This document shows positions 20,338-35,897 of a stretch of DNA of 64,000 nt, in pieces. The stretch lies in contig NZ_FXAM01000001.1 in the NCBI RefSeq assembly GCF_900155475.1, positions 3,234,881 to 3,298,880 of the forward strand, given 5' to 3'. The stretch is from Methylomagnum ishizawai. Lineage in GTDB: Bacteria > Pseudomonadota > Gammaproteobacteria > Methylococcales > Methylococcaceae. The translations under genes and the position numbers were made by a program. The notes beneath the pieces are model-generated. The model saw only the letters and a list, made by a program, of their open reading frames with translations, did no database searches and was not told the DNA's origin. Each line of letters opens with the position of its first letter. The first letter of the stretch is position 1.

Positions 20338-22081
20338 AGCCGTCATTCCGCACCCATGATTCCGCACCCATGCCCTACACTTTGGCCTTTTCTGAGTGAG
20401 GGAGCATGACTTCGACGGTTTCGATCCCGGCGGCGGGTGAAGGAGGTGCCGCCGACTATGCCGTCCAGGACCTCGATCACCTGGGCTTGGTGGCGGGGAT
20501 GGTCGATGAACTGGGGTTGGTGGAACTGATCGACCGCCTGGTTCCGCAGGACCATGGACAGCGCAAGCTGTCGGTGGGCGTGTTGGTGAAGGCGATGATC
20601 CTGAACGGCCTGGGGTTCGTGCAGAGGACGCTGTACCTGATGCCCCGGTTTTTCCAGGACAAGCCGGTGGAACGGCTGCTGGGGCCGGGCGTCCTCGCGG
20701 AGCACCTGAACGACGACGCGTTGGGCCGCGCCCTGGACGCCATCCACCGGTACGGCCCCACGGAACTGTTCGCCGCGCTGGCGGCGCAGGCGGTGAAGCG
20801 GCTGGGCTTGGCGTGCCGGACGGGGCACCTGGACGCGACCAGCCTGCACACCGACGGCCAGCCCAAGGGTGGGGAGGAGCCGGAAGTCGTCCGCGTCACC
20901 CAGGGGTACAGCCGCGACCACCGGCCGGATTTGAACCAGGTGGTGGCGCAGTTCATCTGCGAGAACGAAGCCGGGATTCCCTTGCTCATGAAGGCGCTCG
21001 GCGGGAACAGCAGCGACCAGGCCGACTTCCGCCAGACGGTGTCGGCCCATGTTGGGCAATTGCGGACCGACGTGGGGCTGGAATATCTGGTGGCCGACAG
21101 CGCGCTCTACACCGGGGAAACCCTGCGGGAATTGGACGGCTTCGGCTGGATCAGCCGGGTGCCGGAGACCGTCGGCCTGGCGCGCGAGTTGACCCTGGCG
21201 GTGGCGGGCGACCTGGCGCGGAGCCCGGAGGAACTGGCCTTCCGGAGCCTGTGCGTTACGCATGGCGGCATCCGGCAGCGTTGGCTGGTCGTGCATACCC
21301 AGGCCGCCCGCCACCGCGCGGGGAAGGCCTTGGGCAAACGGCACCTGGCCCAGGGCGAGGCCGAGTGGAAAGCCTTCGACCGGCTCCAAAGGACCCCCTT
21401 CGCCTGCGCGGCGGACGCCGAAGCCGCTTTGTGCGCCTTCCGCAAGCAGCACAAGCTCACCTCGGTCCACGACGCCCAGGTCCTCGCCCGTCCCCGCTAC
21501 GCCAAGCAGGGGCGTCCCGCCCAGGGCCAGCCACCGGACGCCCACCAATACTTCGTCCAAGGGGGCCTGGCTTCCCGGATCGATCTCCACCGCCAGGCGC
21601 TGGACCGCAAAAGCTGCTTCATCGTCGCCACCAACGAACTGGACGGCCAGGCGCTCCCCGACGGCCGGGTCATCGACCTCTACAAAAAGGGCCAACAGAA
21701 GGTCGAGCGTGGATTCCGTTTTTTGAAGGACCCACTCTTTCTTGCCTCCACGCTGTTCCTGAAATCGCCCCGCCGCCTGATGGCTTTGCTCATGGTGATG
21801 ACCCTGTGCTTGCTGATCTACGCCGCCATCGAATGGCGGATCCGCCAGACCCTGCAAATCAGCCAGCGATCCTTCCCCGACCAGAAGGGCCAGGCCACTC
21901 AGTGCCCCACCGCACGCTGGGTCTTCCAGTACTTTTCCGGCATCCGCCTGCTCAAAGTCATGGACTCCCAAACCCTCGTTCTTGGCCTCAACCTCCACCA
22001 CAGGACAATCCTCGACCTGCTCGGCAACCGCTACGCCGAGCTATATGCCAATTCAGCGTGAAGGGGTGCGGAAAGACGGCT
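20338..22081. mobile_element. IS1634-family (IS4 superfamily) insertion sequence
   Basis: The element has 18-bp terminal inverted repeats, AGCCGTCATTCCGCACCC at 20338-20355 and its complement with one mismatch at 22064-22081, around a full-length transposase gene. The flanks carry an 11-bp direct repeat, GTAGTCTCTGT, at 20327-20337 and 22085-22095. Three extra bases (GTA) lie between the right end and its copy. The 14-bp motif holding the left tip is present twice in tandem (20345-20372). It is inserted in the replication initiator gene. Confidence 0.88.
20406..22061 (+). CDS. IS1634-family transposase
   Basis: The 551-residue DDE transposase begins with the family pattern VQDLDHLGLVAGMVDELGLV, then GVLVKAMILNGLGFVQRTLYL. 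It continues with a first catalytic Asp region (TGHLDATSLHTDG), TQGYSRDHRPDLNQVV, YLVADSALYTGE with the second Asp, RVPETV, and a C-terminal Y-(2)-R-(3)-E-(6)-K region (IDLYKKGQQKVERGFRFLKDP) with the Glu. No frameshift or stop interrupts it, so it is likely active. Confidence 0.92.
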   Translation: MTSTVSIPAAGEGGAADYAVQDLDHLGLVAGMVDELGLVELIDRLVPQDHGQRKLSVGVLVKAMILNGLGFVQRTLYLMPRFFQDKPVERLLGPGVLAEHLNDDALGRALDAIHRYGPTELFAALAAQAVKRLGLACRTGHLDATSLHTDGQPKGGEEPEVVRVTQGYSRDHRPDLNQVVAQFICENEAGIPLLMKALGGNSSDQADFRQTVSAHVGQLRTDVGLEYLVADSALYTGETLRELDGFGWISRVPETVGLARELTLAVAGDLARSPEELAFRSLCVTHGGIRQRWLVVHTQAARHRAGKALGKRHLAQGEAEWKAFDRLQRTPFACAADAEAALCAFRKQHKLTSVHDAQVLARPRYAKQGRPAQGQPPDAHQYFVQGGLASRIDLHRQALDRKSCFIVATNELDGQALPDGRVIDLYKKGQQKVERGFRFLKDPLFLASTLFLKSPRRLMALLMVMTLCLLIYAAIEWRIRQTLQISQRSFPDQKGQATQCPTARWVFQYFSGIRLLKVMDSQTLVLGLNLHHRTILDLLGNRYAELYANSA

Positions 22082-23256: not shown

Positions 23257-23619
23257 TCATGCGGCCCGCTCGACGACTTCACCGCTTCCTGCGGTCGGGG
23301 CGGTCCTTCGGGTCGTGCTGCCGCCTGCCTCCCCGGTTTTTGGGCTGGCGGCGTTCCGGGGGGTTGTTCGTCGGTCCTCGGGCGGTGGATCGAATTCAGA
23401 CGGCGGGGGCCACAGATCAGGACGCAGCTCGTGGCGAGTGACCGCGCCATCGGTGGCTATCTCGATCTGAATGGCTCGCTCGGCGGGTAGGCACTTTGTG
23501 AGGTACAGCCACCTATGAATGTGCTGCTGCTTGACCTTTCCACCAATACGCCGAGCTAGTTCCTTTTGGGAGCCAACAACGGCGATTGCCTTTTCGATGA
23601 TTGTGTTTTTGGTGTTCAT
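23257..23619 (-). CDS. Cro/YdaS-like regulator
   Basis: The first 70 residues match YdaS/Cro-type DNA-binding proteins: AIAVVGSQKELARRIGGKVK, QQHIHRWLY, LPAERAIQIEIATDG and VTRHELRPDLWPP. The last 45 residues are Pro/Thr/Arg-rich and look disordered. It is divergent from the CI-like gene, and the operator-bearing region between them (23620-23704) should be its own promoter. It would turn the leftward early operon on or off during lytic growth. Confidence 0.85.
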   Translation of the reverse strand: MNTKNTIIEKAIAVVGSQKELARRIGGKVKQQHIHRWLYLTKCLPAERAIQIEIATDGAVTRHELRPDLWPPPSEFDPPPEDRRTTPRNAASPKTGEAGGSTTRRTAPTAGSGEVVERAA

Positions 23620-23626
23620 GGGCGTC

Positions 23627-23656
23627 AGCGTACAATAAAAATTGTACGACGGTCAA
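23627..23656 (-). promoter_or_regulatory. Leftward early promoter (PR-like) with operator in the spacer
   Basis: On the minus strand TTGACC (23656-23651) is followed after 18 bases by TACGCT (23632-23627). The operator ACAATAAAAATTGT (23632-23645) fills the spacer. The arrangement copies the rightward promoter at 26048-26077 (TTGACG, 18 bases, TACAGT, operator in the spacer). Confidence 0.5.
23632..23645. promoter_or_regulatory. Repressor operator ACAA-N6-TTGT, copy 1
   Basis: ACAATAAAAATTGT, extended to GTACAAT/ATTGTAC, is a perfect palindrome between the cro-like and cI-like genes. The same ACAA-N6-TTGT pattern recurs at 23680, 26035 and 26059. Confidence 0.7.
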
Positions 23657-23679
23657 CCATGGAAGTTGTTTGAACAAAA

Positions 23680-23693
23680 ACAATCGCGGTTGT
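23680..23693. promoter_or_regulatory. Repressor operator ACAA-N6-TTGT, copy 2
   Basis: ACAATCGCGGTTGT lies 12 bases before the cI-like start codon, where it could give autoregulation. A less regular CAAC/GTTG pair (23655-23669) between the two copies may be a weak third site. Confidence 0.65.
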
Positions 23694-23704
23694 AGCCTTC
23701 GCGT

Positions 23705-24076
23705 ATGAACCTTTCAGAACGAATCAAGATGGCCCGCGAATACGTAGGGCTAGATCAGAAGGGGCTTGCCGAGAAGGTGGGCATTTCCCAGCAAATGGTT
23801 TCGCGCTTAGAAACTGGCAAGGCGGACGGTTCGTCACACTTGATCAGGATTGCCCAGGTTTGCAGGGTCAACCCATTTTGGCTATATGACGAAAGCTACG
23901 AGATGGTGGATGAAAAATCTCTAACGGAAGAAGAGCAAAGACATTTACAACTATTTCGGGAAGCAAGTCCAAAGACGAGGCGGGCTGTTGAAAATGTTTA
24001 TGAAATCGAAAAGCAAGATATAAGTCCGGGCCAAACTCGGACCAACAATAACGGCCCACAGGAACGGGCAGCCTAA
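23705..24076 (+). CDS. CI-like XRE-family repressor lacking a peptidase domain (123 aa)
   Basis: Residues 1-70 are an XRE helix-turn-helix: MNLSERIKMAREYVGLDQKG, LAEKVGISQQMVSRLETGK, HLIRIAQVCRVNPFWLY. The rest is a short helical tail (LTEEEQRHLQLFREASPKTRRAVENVYE). There is no S24 LexA-type domain, so RecA-driven self-cleavage is not expected. Induction may depend on the BRO or Rha antirepressors. It is divergent from cro and followed by the integron cassette array. Confidence 0.87.
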   Translation: MNLSERIKMAREYVGLDQKGLAEKVGISQQMVSRLETGKADGSSHLIRIAQVCRVNPFWLYDESYEMVDEKSLTEEEQRHLQLFREASPKTRRAVENVYEIEKQDISPGQTRTNNNGPQERAA

Positions 24077-24255
24077 ATCCTGCCAAATTCGTCACTGTTT
24101 TTTCTGTGAAGTATTTACGTTGACAAATCGATAAAACCGCTTCACATGAGCAAAAGAACAGCCTGGTAGGATGGGCCGGTATTCCCGGCCCACCTTGATG
24201 TTCCGGGGGCGGTGGTGTGCTAATTGGATTAGACGACAAAAGGTGTCTAATCCCC
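24077..24255. other. Non-coding stretch between the repressor gene and first cassette
   Basis: No convincing gene is seen. A perfect 9-bp stem, GGATTAGAC (24226-24234) with GTCTAATCC (24245-24253), lies just left of the first cassette junction. GGGCCGG/CCGGCCC (24174-24191) forms another hairpin and may end cI transcription, although it lacks a T-run. No R''-type GCCTAAC is found here, so the left recombination site is degenerate or is not an attC. Confidence 0.5.
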
Positions 24256-24256
24256 G

Positions 24257-24529
24257 TTAGGCCATGGAATAGCGGGTTCTGGTTAAGCCGGAAGGTGTTT
24301 TCAAGGCTGGAATTTGAACTCCGGGAATCGGGATTCCGGCGTGGTTCCCGGTTTCGGGAAAAGCGAATCGCGGATTTCCGCAAGTTCGGTTTCAAGCCGG
24401 AGCTTTGGGAATGGCGGAACCGGAAAGCCCGCACTCCGTAGCGGGCCTAACAAGTCGCTCAAGGGGGACGCGGGGCAAAGGACATATCTCCGAATCGACT
24501 GCGGAGCGCCGCGCCCCTTAGCTTTTTCG
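24257..24529 (+). repeat. Cassette A, apparently non-coding
   Basis: It begins TTAGGCCATGGAATA and is closely similar to cassette C (25049-25309): shared ATGGAATA start, TTCTGGT, AGCCGGAA, GTGTTT, CAAGGCTGGAA, GGTTTCAA.CCGGAG and the stretch before attC. Both strands give open frames, but the similarity is at DNA level and no frame has a clear ribosome-binding site. It may be a regulatory, promoter or spacer cassette. Confidence 0.6.
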
Positions 24530-24535
24530 TTAGGC
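24445..24535 (+). other. attC site 1
   Basis: R'' GCCTAAC (24445-24451) and R' GTTAGGC (24529-24535). The inner box GCTCAAGGGG pairs with CCCCTTAGC except for one extra C. The 91-bp site is nearly identical to attC 3. Confidence 0.83.
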
Positions 24536-24552
24536 CTCACAAAACTAATATC

Positions 24553-24837
24553 GTGGCACTCCCAAAATCACATCACCTCTCATTGAGCGAACTCACGGAA
24601 GTGCTGGCTGCACTCCCGCAAGATGAGGCGATCACCATTGAGCGTGTCCGTCCTCACAACAAGAGCGAGATTCGTAGCGCAGAGCAAATCAGCCCGGTGG
24701 AGCTCAAACGCCAATTGCTTCTCGCTCACGAGGAGGAGCATCTGCCAGGTGGAGATTGGGAGGTTGTTATCAGCGCACTGGGCAAAAGGCTCATCGCACA
24801 CCACGATGGCGTGTTTTGGCTTGAGCCTCTGACCTGA
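24553..24837 (+). CDS. Cassette-borne protein of unknown function (94 aa)
   Basis: This is the single gene of cassette B, starting 18 bases inside the cassette with GTG and ending 100 bases before attC 2. The product has LSLSELTEVLAALPQDEAIT, IERVRPHNKSEIRSAEQISP and DWEVVISALGKRLIAHHDGVFWLEPL. It is a small acidic, soluble protein without recognised motif. Base composition is lower in GC than the prophage genes, as usual for cassette genes. An ATG start is lacking, so the exact start is uncertain. Confidence 0.6.
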   Translation: MALPKSHHLSLSELTEVLAALPQDEAITIERVRPHNKSEIRSAEQISPVELKRQLLLAHEEEHLPGGDWEVVISALGKRLIAHHDGVFWLEPLT

Positions 24838-24937
24838 GCAAACTGAATGAGTAGGAATTGAGTCACATGGCCACCAAGCATCACTCCACAAACATCCAGG
24901 CAATAGCTTGTTGTTTGCCCTTCCACTCCGCGCCCCA

Positions 24938-25054
24938 GCCTAACTGTCGGTTCAACGCGGACGCCAACACTGGCCATGCCTTCGGCATTTTCATGGCCAG
25001 TGTTGGTGCCCTGCGCGCTTCGCGCTCCGGCGCCGGTTAACCTGGGCGTTAGGC
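24938..25054 (+). other. attC site 2
   Basis: R'' GCCTAAC (24938-24944) and R' GTTAGGC (25048-25054). GGTTCAACGC pairs with the GGTTAACC side with one unpaired C. A long inner stem (CCAACACTGGCCATG with CATGGCCAGTGTTGG) extends the fold. It is 117 bp and of a different type from sites 1, 3 and 4. Confidence 0.82.
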
Positions 25055-25309
25055 CATGGAATAACGAATTCTGGTGGAGCCGGAAAGTGTTTCCAAGGCT
25101 GGAACCGGGATTCCGGTTGGGTTCGCGGAATTCCGAACCGGCGAGGTTTCCGAGAATCGACAGGTTCGGTTTCAAACCGGAGTTTCTGGCATGGCGGAAC
25201 GGGAAAGTCCGCGCTCCGTAGTGGGCCTAACAAGCCGCTCAAGGGGGACGCGGGGCCAAGGACGTATCTCAGAATTGGCTGTGGAGCGCCGCGCCCCTTA
25301 GCTTTCTAG
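25049..25309 (+). repeat. Cassette C, apparently non-coding, related to cassette A
   Basis: It starts TTAGGCCATGGAATA like cassette A, keeps the same block order to the attC, and has the same pre-attC text (GGCGGAACGGGAAAGTCCG, CTCCGTAG). The pre-attC block also ends cassette D (25771-25800). The repeated unit suggests duplication or repeated capture of one cassette. Confidence 0.6.
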
Positions 25310-25315
25310 TTAGGC
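25225..25315 (+). other. attC site 3
   Basis: R'' GCCTAAC (25225-25231) and R' GTTAGGC (25309-25315). The inner boxes GCTCAAGGGG and CCCCTTAGC match attC 1. The length is 91 bp. Confidence 0.83.
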
Positions 25316-25440
25316 GGTGGGCGTTGCTCTTTTGTATCGGCAACAGGGAGACGAAAACATAACCTTCCATTGTCGTCAGGTATTTCTACGCATAAGCCGA
25401 TAGCAATGAGTTCATCTTTAGCTTGTGTAATTGCGTTCAT
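25306..25440 (-). CDS. Small divergent cassette frame (44 aa)
   Basis: MNAITQAKDELIAIGLCVEI, then PDDNGRLCFRLPVADTKEQRPPPN, runs opposite to the cassette direction and ends within the R' end of attC 3. The composition is protein-like. It faces away from the 25441 gene with abutting ATG codons, as in small toxin-antitoxin or promoter-sharing pairs. Support is weak. Confidence 0.35.
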   Translation of the reverse strand: MNAITQAKDELIAIGLCVEIPDDNGRLCFRLPVADTKEQRPPPN

Positions 25441-25743
25441 ATGTATTTCTCGTTGGGTATAAATATGGCCTATTTGTCTGCAAAAGAAATCAAGCAACTC
25501 AAGGGCACGTCTTTAGAATCGCGAGTTCTTTATATATTTGTTATGCGTTCAAGAATGTCAACCGATGGCACCTCTTCGTTTCAAGATGAAGATGAAATTG
25601 CTACAGAGCTTGCTCAATTCTTTGAAGAAGATAATCCCACAAAGGTTAACGTGGAGGCTATCTCAAGGAGGCTCAGTGAAATGCAAGCTGCCGGGATATT
25701 AAGCCCCACCGATGTGCGAAAAATCCGTAGCCTTTTGTTATGA
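25441..25743 (+). CDS. Cassette-borne protein of unknown function (100 aa)
   Basis: This is the main frame of cassette D. It contains MAYLSAKEIKQLKGTSLESR, VLYIFVMRSRMSTDGTSSFQ, DEDEIATELAQFFEEDNPTK and ISRRLSEMQAAGILSPTDVR. The helical pattern with ISRRLSEMQAAG could be a winged-helix-like DNA-binding domain, but this is only a guess. The start may be ATG 25441 or ATG 25465; neither has a strong ribosome-binding site. AT-rich codon use sets it apart from the prophage. Confidence 0.6.
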   Translation: MYFSLGINMAYLSAKEIKQLKGTSLESRVLYIFVMRSRMSTDGTSSFQDEDEIATELAQFFEEDNPTKVNVEAISRRLSEMQAAGILSPTDVRKIRSLLL

Positions 25744-25801
25744 CCCGGCGGCAAACCCAATCCGCGCAGGGCGGAACCGGAAAGTCCGTTCTCCGTAGCC
25801 A

Positions 25802-25897
25802 GCCTAACAAGTCATTCAAGTGGGACGGGACGCGGACTCAAGGGCATTTCTCCGAATCAACCTCGGAGCGCCGCGCCCCTTAATTTTGTCGTTAGGC
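25802..25897 (+). other. attC site 4
   Basis: R'' GCCTAAC (25802-25808) and R' GTTAGGC (25891-25897), with the same inner GGAGCGCCGCGCCCCTTA text as sites 1 and 3. It is 96 bp and closes the array on the right. Confidence 0.82.
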
Positions 25898-25960
25898 GGC
25901 TGCTTCTTAACATCAAGATCGCTCATTCCTAAATAGTTGTGTCGCCCCGCCAGGGACACC

Positions 25961-25983
25961 AGCCCGCCCCGAGCGGGCTTTTT
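25961..25983 (+). terminator. Terminator after the cassette array
   Basis: AGCCCGC and GCGGGCT around CCCGA, followed by TTTTT. With the next hairpin it isolates the early operon from the cassettes. Confidence 0.75.
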
Positions 25984-25991
25984 CATGCCCC

Positions 25992-26016
25992 AAGCCCGGC
26001 CAGTCCGGGCTTTTTT
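25992..26016 (+). terminator. Second terminator before the early promoter
   Basis: AAGCCCGG and CCGGGCTT around CCAGT, then a run of six T. Two terminators in tandem just before the promoter at 26048. Confidence 0.8.
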
Positions 26017-26034
26017 GTGGGCACGGGAAAGTGA

Positions 26035-26077
26035 ACAACTTTTATTGTTGACGATAAAACAACTTTAATTGTACAGT
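26035..26077 (+). promoter_or_regulatory. Rightward early promoter (PL-like) with two operators
   Basis: TTGACG (26048-26053), 18 bases and TACAGT (26072-26077) form the promoter. ACAACTTTTATTGT (26035-26048) and ACAACTTTAATTGT (26059-26072) are two more ACAA-N6-TTGT operators, one before the -35 box and one filling the spacer. The CI-like repressor should therefore silence the plus-strand operon. Confidence 0.68.
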
Positions 26078-26139
26078 ACCCCCAAGCCCCACCCAACCGG
26101 GGCACCCTCCCAAAGAACAACCCCACCCAGGAGCGCACC

Positions 26140-31613: not shown

Positions 31614-31916
31614 AGGGAAGGAACGATGTTGACACCGCGTCTTGACCGGGCCTATGTTATGACCCGCACCCCGGACGCATCCGGGGCCGGGAGTCGAAGC
31701 CCGCGAGTCATGATGGCGCACAGCCCCAATTCCAGCGTACCAGGGGACTTTTTATGTCCATGGTACGCCTACCGAGTGCTGACGGGCGGTGCGTGGGCAC
31801 GCGCAAGCGTGGCCGGTGCCATCATGCCGGTTTTCGACCCCACGCATCGTCCGTCGCCTATCTCTCGTCGAAAAGAGACGCGACGGCTCCAAACCTTACA
31901 TGATGGAGTCCGTCCC
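31614..31916 (+). other. Structured leader ahead of the Rha gene
   Basis: No firm gene is seen in this 300-base gap. An open frame from 31626 continues into Rha and could add about 97 residues (with RTPDASGAGSRSPRVMM, like Ash-type leader peptides), but no ribosome-binding site supports it. CCCCGGA/TCCGGGG (from 31671) and CCGTCGC/GCGACGG (31849-31885 region, with an inner TCTCT/AGAGA) are stable hairpins. A regulatory RNA is plausible. Confidence 0.4.
31629..31658 (+). promoter_or_regulatory. Sigma-70-type promoter for the Rha leader
   Basis: TTGACA (31629-31634), 18 bases, TATGTT (31653-31658). The perfect -35 box suggests that the Rha unit can be transcribed apart from the early operon. 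Confidence 0.6.
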
Positions 31917-32582
31917 ATGTCTACCCAAGACACCGCCCCAGTTGCGCCCATCGTCGCCCTGACCGATGGCGTTCCCACGACCACCACCCTCGCCATCGCC
32001 GAAGGCGCGAAGACCGAACACGCCAGCGTCATCAAGCTGGTTCGGACCTACCTTGCCGACCTGGAGGAATTTGGAAGGGTCGCGTTTGAAACGCGATCCC
32101 AAGCCAAATCCAATTCTGGATTTGAAATCGCGAATTCCGACAAAGGGTCCGATTTGAAATCCAACCCTTCCGGCGCTGGCCGTCCCACCGAATACGCCCG
32201 CCTGAACGAGCAGCAAACCACCCTGCTGTTCACCTACATGAAGAACACCCCCATCGTGCGCGGCTTCAAGCGGCGGTTGGTTCGGGAGTTCTACGACATG
32301 GCCCGGTCGCTGCGCGAGACCGCGCCCGTATCCCTCCCGTCCCCCGTCCTATCCCGCATCCTGCTGACCCTCGACGGCGGCAGGGTCGTCAAGTCCGAAC
32401 CTGTCCCCGACGACGCGCAGGTTTGTTCCATCGCCTACTTCCGGGAATTGGCCGCGCTCAGGGGCTTCCGCCTGATAAGTCCCCGCAACTGGCTGGACGT
32501 GTGCGAGGTGCTGGGTATGGTCGGCGACGAACACATGCCCGCCCTGGCCCGGTATGCGACCGGGCGCATGGCCAATCCCTGA
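31917..32582 (+). CDS. Rha-family phage regulatory protein (221 aa)
   Basis: Residues about 15-130 form a Rha domain: LAIAEGAKTEHASVIKLVRTY, LADLEEFGRVAFETRSQ, GRPTEYARLNEQQTTLLFTY and VRGFKRRLVREFYDMARSL. A 30-residue insertion (residues about 61-90, KSNSGFEIANSDKGSDLKS) breaks the usual spacing. It is encoded by short TTTGAAA-containing repeats with dyads. The last 80 residues are a second domain. Rha proteins interfere with repressor or host replication control. GGAG lies before the ATG at 31917. Confidence 0.82.
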   Translation: MSTQDTAPVAPIVALTDGVPTTTTLAIAEGAKTEHASVIKLVRTYLADLEEFGRVAFETRSQAKSNSGFEIANSDKGSDLKSNPSGAGRPTEYARLNEQQTTLLFTYMKNTPIVRGFKRRLVREFYDMARSLRETAPVSLPSPVLSRILLTLDGGRVVKSEPVPDDAQVCSIAYFRELAALRGFRLISPRNWLDVCEVLGMVGDEHMPALARYATGRMANP

Positions 32583-34936: not shown

Positions 34937-35748
34937 AGCGCATCATGCCCCACCTGGGGCGAGTTAACTTGGACCAAATCCACGGGAAAAGCCTGGAACC
35001 CTACATCGAAACGAGGCGGGCGGATGGCGTAGCGGCGGGCACAATCACGCGGGAAATCACCGTCGTCCGCCGCATCCTGAGCTTGGCGTCCAGGGTGTGG
35101 CGCGACGAACAAGGCCGTCCCTGGCTGGACACCCCTCCGCTGCTGTCCAACGCCAAGGGCGCAGCCAGGAAGCCCAGGCCCATCACCTGGGACGAGCAGG
35201 CCCGGCTATTCCGGGAATTGCCCGGCTACCTGGCTGAAATGGCCCTGTTCGCGGTCAACACGGGCTGCCGGCAGGAGGAGATTTGCGCCATGCGGTGGGA
35301 ATGGGAATGCGAAGTCTCGGGTACCGACCACACCGTGTTCGTGTTGCCGGGCGAGATCACCAAGAACGCGCGGGAACGGATCGTACCGCTCAACGGCGTG
35401 GCCCGATCCATCGTCGAGGCGCGGCGCGGGAAGCATCCCGAGCATGTTTTCAGCTACGGGGGACACCGCCTGGACCGCATGACCAACAAGGCGTGGTACA
35501 AGGCCAGGGAGGCCGCTGAACTGCCCAGCGTGCGCGTCCACGACCTGCGGCACACCTTCGGGATGCGCCTGCGGGCCGCTGGCGTGTCGTTCGAGGATCG
35601 CCAGGATTTGCTGGGCCACCACGCGGGCAGGATCACCACCCACTACAGCCGCGCCGAAATCGCCCGGCTCATCGAGTGCGTGGAAAGGCTGTGCGCCACG
35701 GAGGGCGAGAGGAAGCCAGAAATGGCCCTGGTCCGCCGCCGGAAGTGA
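34672..35748 (+). CDS. Tyrosine site-specific integrase
   Basis: The 358-residue recombinase carries the catalytic set Arg200 (NTGCRQEEI), Lys region KNARERIVPL, His290-Arg293 (HDLRHTFGM), His316 (LLGHHA) and the nucleophile Tyr325 (THYS). The N-terminal arm (WHIEKIYRGVRIYESTGTGD) and core-binding domain precede it. AAAGGAG lies six bases before the ATG at 34672. It faces the tRNA-Val 3' end, its likely attachment site. Confidence 0.93.
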   Translation: MGIKPSPGLRKRGEVWHIEKIYRGVRIYESTGTGDLEEAERHLRRRIEQIREESIHGTRRPRTFEEAATRFLLENKDQRAIDRAGYALKRIMPHLGRVNLDQIHGKSLEPYIETRRADGVAAGTITREITVVRRILSLASRVWRDEQGRPWLDTPPLLSNAKGAARKPRPITWDEQARLFRELPGYLAEMALFAVNTGCRQEEICAMRWEWECEVSGTDHTVFVLPGEITKNARERIVPLNGVARSIVEARRGKHPEHVFSYGGHRLDRMTNKAWYKAREAAELPSVRVHDLRHTFGMRLRAAGVSFEDRQDLLGHHAGRITTHYSRAEIARLIECVERLCATEGERKPEMALVRRRK

Positions 35749-35771
35749 ATCCGGCAAAATTCCGGCAAAAT

Positions 35772-35798
35772 AAAAGCCGGGTTTTAGGCCCGGCTTTT
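35772..35798. terminator. Bidirectional terminator between integrase and tRNA-Val
   Basis: AAAAGCCGGG and CCCGGCTTTT form a perfect 10-bp stem around TTTTAGG, with A and T tracts on both sides, so it can serve int (plus) and tRNA-Val (minus). Confidence 0.8.
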
Positions 35799-35822
35799 AA
35801 GTCTTTGATTCGGAAAGTGAAT

Positions 35823-35897
35823 TGGTGGGCGGTATAGGATTTGAACCTATGACCCCTGCCGTGTGAAAGCAGTGCTCTACCGCTGAGCTAACCGCCC
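35823..35897 (-). tRNA. tRNA-Val (anticodon CAC)
   Basis: The minus strand gives a full cloverleaf: acceptor GGGCGGT with ACCGCCC, D-loop AGCTCAGCGGTAGAGC, anticodon stem CTGCT/GGCAG with loop TTCACAC (anticodon CAC), and T-arm GGTTCAAATCC. CCA is encoded (35823-35825). The 3' end faces the integrase, so the prophage has probably rebuilt this end from its own attachment sequence. Confidence 0.95.

Follow-up and report, generated by a model that had tools for sequence, protein, structure and literature searches.

An integrase-less cluster of integron cassettes, with an attI-like site at its left end, in the immunity region of a Methylomagnum ishizawai prophage

Introduction

In lambda, rexAB lie between cI and OL, a place that is also used by other lysogeny cargo. 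The locus described here corresponds to rexAB in its position, in its orientation with cI and in the flanking terminators and operator, but the cargo consists of integron cassettes, the predicted proteins of which have no family match.

Cassettes have been met in phages before. Three complete integrons, one In0 and 17 CALINs (integrase-less clusters of attC sites) were found in phage genomes, and phage attC sites were recombined by IntI1 (Qi et al. 2023, PMC9892861). Integrase-less attC clusters in prophages, even attI-headed ones, are therefore known, and the initial annotation of the present locus, which saw in it an unusual route for cassette spread, was right as to unusual, whereas the route is not unprecedented. 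Shewanella prophage M16-3, like the present one, harbours a cluster of attC sites that lacks an integrase and is headed by an attI (here attI-like) site. However, M16-3, which is regarded as cryptic, has a complete integron as well. Its CALIN lies among tail, scaffold and terminase genes rather than in a cargo slot between cI and an operator, and its attI differs very little from that of S. oneidensis (PMC9892861), while the attI-like site of the present array is diverged. The V. anguillarum phages Va_90-11-286_p16 and PF430-3_p42 are likewise temperate phages with cassettes or intI of the sedentary chromosomal integron of their host, but they carry intI and sit at the integron, whereas the present prophage has no intI and lies at a tRNA-Val gene about 412 kb away from it (PMC9892861). 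CALINs distant from intI are also common in some chromosomes, e.g. in Xanthomonas, and the present cluster resembles them as a set of attC sites away from intI that would be mobilisable in trans; they are, however, chromosomal loci (one is on a plasmid), and are not reported within a phage immunity region (PMC12444791). Finally, cassettes can insert at non-classical attG sites across the genome (Loot 2024, as cited in PMC12901181), and chromosomal integrons store anti-phage genes, according to work cited in PMC12444791.

What is new here is the combination of a defined slot, for which a sister phage allows comparison, a diverged attI-like head and, elsewhere in the genome, the integron from which the cassettes probably came. 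By linking phage-borne cassettes to a probable source, an attI-like entry point and a cargo slot, the locus makes it directly testable in a single, harmless environmental host whether phages spread integron cassettes and use the host IntI to acquire lysogeny cargo. The host is marked as a methanotroph by three copies of pmoA-type genes in its genome.

The cassette cluster and its attC sites

The window, i.e. the whole stretch of 64 kb that was analysed, corresponds to G000:C1:3234881-3298880. Its + strand contains five copies of GTTAGGC and four of GCCTAAC, all of them within 24256-25897. The motifs delimit four GCCTAAC...GTTAGGC units that form R''/R' pairs with complementary inner boxes in a single shared orientation; three of them, of 91, 91 and 96 nt, belong to one type, and the other, of 117 nt, to a different one with a long inner hairpin. 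A covariance model run over the prophage and its flanks (123 kb) recovered all four, with E values from 8.6e-25 to 1.3e-6, in a test that is independent of the window, not of the genus, the model being our own, other than that of IntegronFinder, and built from 20 aligned attC sites of the resident integron described below and of the sister species (G018), none of them from the window. Site 1 (24445-24535, +) scored 102 bits (E 8.6e-25), site 2 (24938-25054, +), the 117-nt one, 33.5 bits (E 1.3e-6), site 3 (25225-25315, +) 91 bits (E 7e-22) and site 4 (25802-25897, +), which has a 5-nt insertion, 86.6 bits (E 1e-20). No further attC site was detected in the 123 kb, except for weak reverse-strand echoes of three of the sites, which arise because an attC site is a palindrome.

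When folded as single-stranded DNA, the bottom strand yields the expected attC-like hairpins at all four sites, with z values of −2.8, −4.8, −2.2 and −1.7 for sites 1-4, respectively, the fold of site 4 being the weakest and only marginally better than those of shuffled sequences. The four attC-like sites of one orientation, and the four cassettes that they bound, had already been recognized from the sequence alone in the initial annotation and are confirmed by these results. The paired inner boxes it described are also present, but the single unpaired C it attributed to them does not apply to sites 1 and 3, where two unpaired bases plus a further one are observed.

Cassette 1 (24257-24529, +) is without a convincing gene and is 82-86% identical to non-coding cassettes of the resident integron. 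Cassette 2 (24530-25048, +), bounded by GTTAGGC at 24529 and 25048, contains one ORF. Cassette 3 (25049-25309, +) is non-coding and 89% identical to C1:2845512-2845773, and cassette 4 (25310-25891, +) combines one ORF with a tail of the resident type, its last 122 nt being up to 89% identical to resident cassettes. With four attC sites in one orientation, and with intI absent from the window and its vicinity, the locus is a CALIN and not a complete integron, in which intI would lie beside attI and the attC array.

The prophage and its cargo slot

The window contains genes for terminase, portal, protease, major head protein, endolysin, replicative helicase, a Sak4-type annealing protein, an antirepressor and an integrase, while the tail sheath, baseplate and fibre genes are found to its left. 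A 161-bp repeat (96% identity) at window positions 35707-35867 and at C1:3210106-3210266, overlapping tRNA-Val, sets the length of the element to about 60 kb. From its gene content, it is a temperate, contractile-tailed prophage. An IS-type DDE transposase gene (DUF4277) at 20406-22061, between the replication genes and the early region, makes it not certain that the prophage is active.

The immunity region includes a gene for a Cro/YdaS-like regulator (23257-23619, −; Pfam YdaS_toxin 2e-20 and P22_Cro 2e-7, PHROG repressor 2e-22), divergent from that of a cI-like repressor of 123 residues consisting only of an HTH domain (23705-24076, +; Pfam HTH_3 8e-10), of which a copy with 87% amino acid identity is found in a G018 prophage. 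Between the two lies the operator-like palindrome ACAATAAAAATTGT (23632-23645; inverted repeat I3), which resembles the one at 26034-26072. No relatives of the cI and Cro proteins were found in viral contigs, and among annotated phages cI gave only distant HTH matches. The stretch that follows cI (24077-24141, +) is common to other prophage immunity regions and forms the left edge of the slot, similarity extending to 24126 in the G018 locus L056 and to 24141 in L106 and L108; phage sequence stops at about 24141. On the other side, the last attC site is separated from conserved phage DNA by a unique junction (25892-25955, +), of which no second copy was found in either genome, and the right edge (25956-26094, +) consists of two terminators (25961-25979 and 25992-26012) and the second operator region.

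Both flanks recur in the G018 prophage, 23405-24126 with 89% and 25956-26094 with 90% identity, but the roughly 2 kb between them is taken up there by unrelated genes, one of them a second HTH gene, and is free of cassettes. As the sister prophage keeps the flanks and replaces the interval, the region is a replaceable cargo slot at the lambda rex position, and the placement first proposed for the cluster, with the cI-like gene on one side and the second operator region on the other, stands. In the sister slot (L056:9352-11425), the C-terminal tail of the second cI-like HTH gene and the boundary downstream of it repeat those of cI, which suggests a recurring boundary sequence for the exchange of cargo.

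The resident integron

The initial annotation had noted that the window contains no integron integrase, which is correct for the window but not for the genome as a whole, where a complete integron is present about 412 kb from the prophage cluster. Its intI (C1:2846381-2847325) scores 487.6 bits against a curated cut-off of 265 and is the only gene of the genome above it. The frame is open and the catalytic motifs RLME, HTFRHSFATH, LGH and YTH are kept, so that the integrase is apparently functional. In the main intI of G018 the frame is incomplete at its end, and the catalytic tyrosine motif is missing. A truncated intI-like gene was also noted on another contig of the sister species (L060, G018:C2:214914-215567), with GTTAGGC ahead of a gene-bearing stretch nearby. 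The resident array, with about 27 attC sites, runs on the minus strand away from intI down to about 2829.5 kb. Within it (G000:C1:2830000-2846070, L009), many cassettes measuring 260-335 bp have no apparent coding content and form a single family of diverging sequences, the tail of which is also present in longer, gene-sized cassettes.

The attC types of the resident and G018 arrays are the same as those of the prophage cluster. The idea that the latter are ordinary phage repeats unrelated to integrons, for which the lack of intI within the window is the sole argument, deserves practically no credence and was ruled out: both this genome and the sister species have the same sites in a long array next to intI, and the sites are absent from the slot of the sister prophage.

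Identity to non-coding resident cassettes is 82-89% for cassettes 1 and 3. In a tree of the cassettes, most other forks of which are weak, cassette 3 pairs with the second resident cassette (clade support 96/97), while cassette 1 is placed elsewhere. These comparisons show, at the level of sequence, that the phage cassettes and the chromosomal integron of the host lineage draw on a common pool. Their different places among the resident cassettes indicate that the array is not a simple copy, and identities of 82-89% that there was no recent movement of cassettes from the present resident array.

The attI-like left junction and the origin of the array

At the left boundary, 24256, stands not half an attC site but the end of an attI-like stretch (core at 24223-24262, +), with the recombination point G|TT at 24256|24257. 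The prophage junction and the resident attI both read ATTGGATTAG-9-GGTGTC-8-G|TTAGGC, where numbers indicate differing bases, and the G018 attI reads ATTGGATTAG-9-GGTGTC-8-G|TTCGCC. The similarity thus continues up to the crossover before the first cassette, but concerns only a diverged core: over the 34 bases 24223-24256, aligned in register, identity is 22 with the resident attI and 24 with that of G018, compared with 30/34 between the two resident sites. Only one of 323,008 control positions reached 22/34. The spaced motif GGATTAG-10-GTGTC-N-AAT, with at most one mismatch, has just three occurrences in the two whole genomes, at the resident attI of each and at the prophage junction, a uniqueness that is supportive but not a blind test, the motif having been taken from the alignment itself. 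Searches of genome contigs and viral contigs with the attI motif returned only chance matches without the layout, and the core GGATTAG was absent from the expected place near intI in 30 other loci of the order, so that this type of attI seems to be limited to the genus. From these features, the cluster looks like an attI-headed array without intI.

The left site also contains the palindrome GGATTAGAC-8-GTCTAATCC, a perfect 9-bp hairpin that is not seen in the resident attI. It could have served as a folded target for the entry of cassettes into unrelated phage or host sequence, as in the established attG insertions, the resemblance to attI being then fortuitous or convergent. We regard such an origin as quite improbable: two blocks, of 10 and 6 bases, are shared with the resident attI and lie equally far from the crossover in both, a single control position scores as high, and attI sites are the only other places with the motif.

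Directly upstream of the attI-like site lies a copy of an interspersed extragenic repeat of the host (24148-24215, +), with matches of 80-87% at several chromosomal places in both genomes. Several copies of this repeat (GGTAGGRTGGGCCGGTATTCCCGGCCCACC...) are present in the two genomes of the genus. The adjacency of a host repeat, together with the integron order and orientation kept by the cassettes, would also fit a single event of illegitimate or homologous recombination, in which the phage acquired attI, cassettes and repeat together from a chromosomal integron, already assembled and without any action of IntI on the phage. The known uptake of parts of the host integron by V. anguillarum phages (PMC9892861) points the same way. 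This origin, the main rival to loading in trans and ahead of attG-type insertion, is unlikely, although by no means negligible: no two neighbouring phage cassettes match neighbours in the resident array, although the source could be the array of another strain, and the resident attI/intI region upstream does not extend into the phage.

On balance, we consider it rather probable that the slot first received host DNA containing an attI-like site, to which cassettes were then joined by the host IntI in trans. According to this proposal, a piece of host DNA bearing the site would have entered the slot between cI and the operator, and cassettes from the pool of the host lineage would have been added singly, through recombination of the bottom strand of attC with the attI-like site. 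Loading in trans is consistent with the attC sites, the shared pool, an integrase that keeps its catalytic residues, the resemblance to attI, the host repeat upstream and the replaced slot; the match of 22-24/34, far below the 30/34 of the resident pair and restricted to the core, counts against it, as do the cassette identities of 82-89%, too low for a recent transfer from the present resident array. Against the step-wise course in particular, no unoccupied form of this very slot, with only the attI-like site in it, was found. A more general scheme, which we judge improbable, is that some temperate phages keep an attI-type landing site in the lysogeny slot and load and exchange cassettes by means of the host IntI; the slot would then be a mobile, integrase-free integron platform that supplies superinfection-exclusion genes.

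Cassette proteins and their possible role

The ORFs of cassettes 2 and 4 encode orphan proteins of 94 residues (24553-24837, +) and 92 residues (25465-25743, +), respectively, with no match in Pfam, PHROG or PADLOC, including known exclusion or defence proteins, and no relatives in plasmids, in viral contigs or in 311 genomes of the order. Their single-sequence structure models, of low confidence (pLDDT 61 and 74), had no fold match at E ≤ 0.001. A role of the cassettes in superinfection exclusion is thus only an analogy drawn from their position. Given the anti-phage genes attributed to chromosomal integrons in work cited in PMC12444791, cassettes at the rex position are nevertheless a sensible place to seek exclusion genes.

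A promoter scan of the array returned nothing above chance. The cassettes lie between cI and the second operator, are co-directional with cI, and the array ends at two terminators, which makes read-through from the cI promoter the likeliest mode of expression; in the lysogen, their genes would probably be transcribed together with cI, like lambda rexAB. The same prophage also contains a predicted immunity element of the P1/P4 type, namely a C4 antisense RNA (Rfam, 54.9 bits) at 31775-31861, which overlaps the 5' part of the antirepressor-like ORF at 31626-32582.
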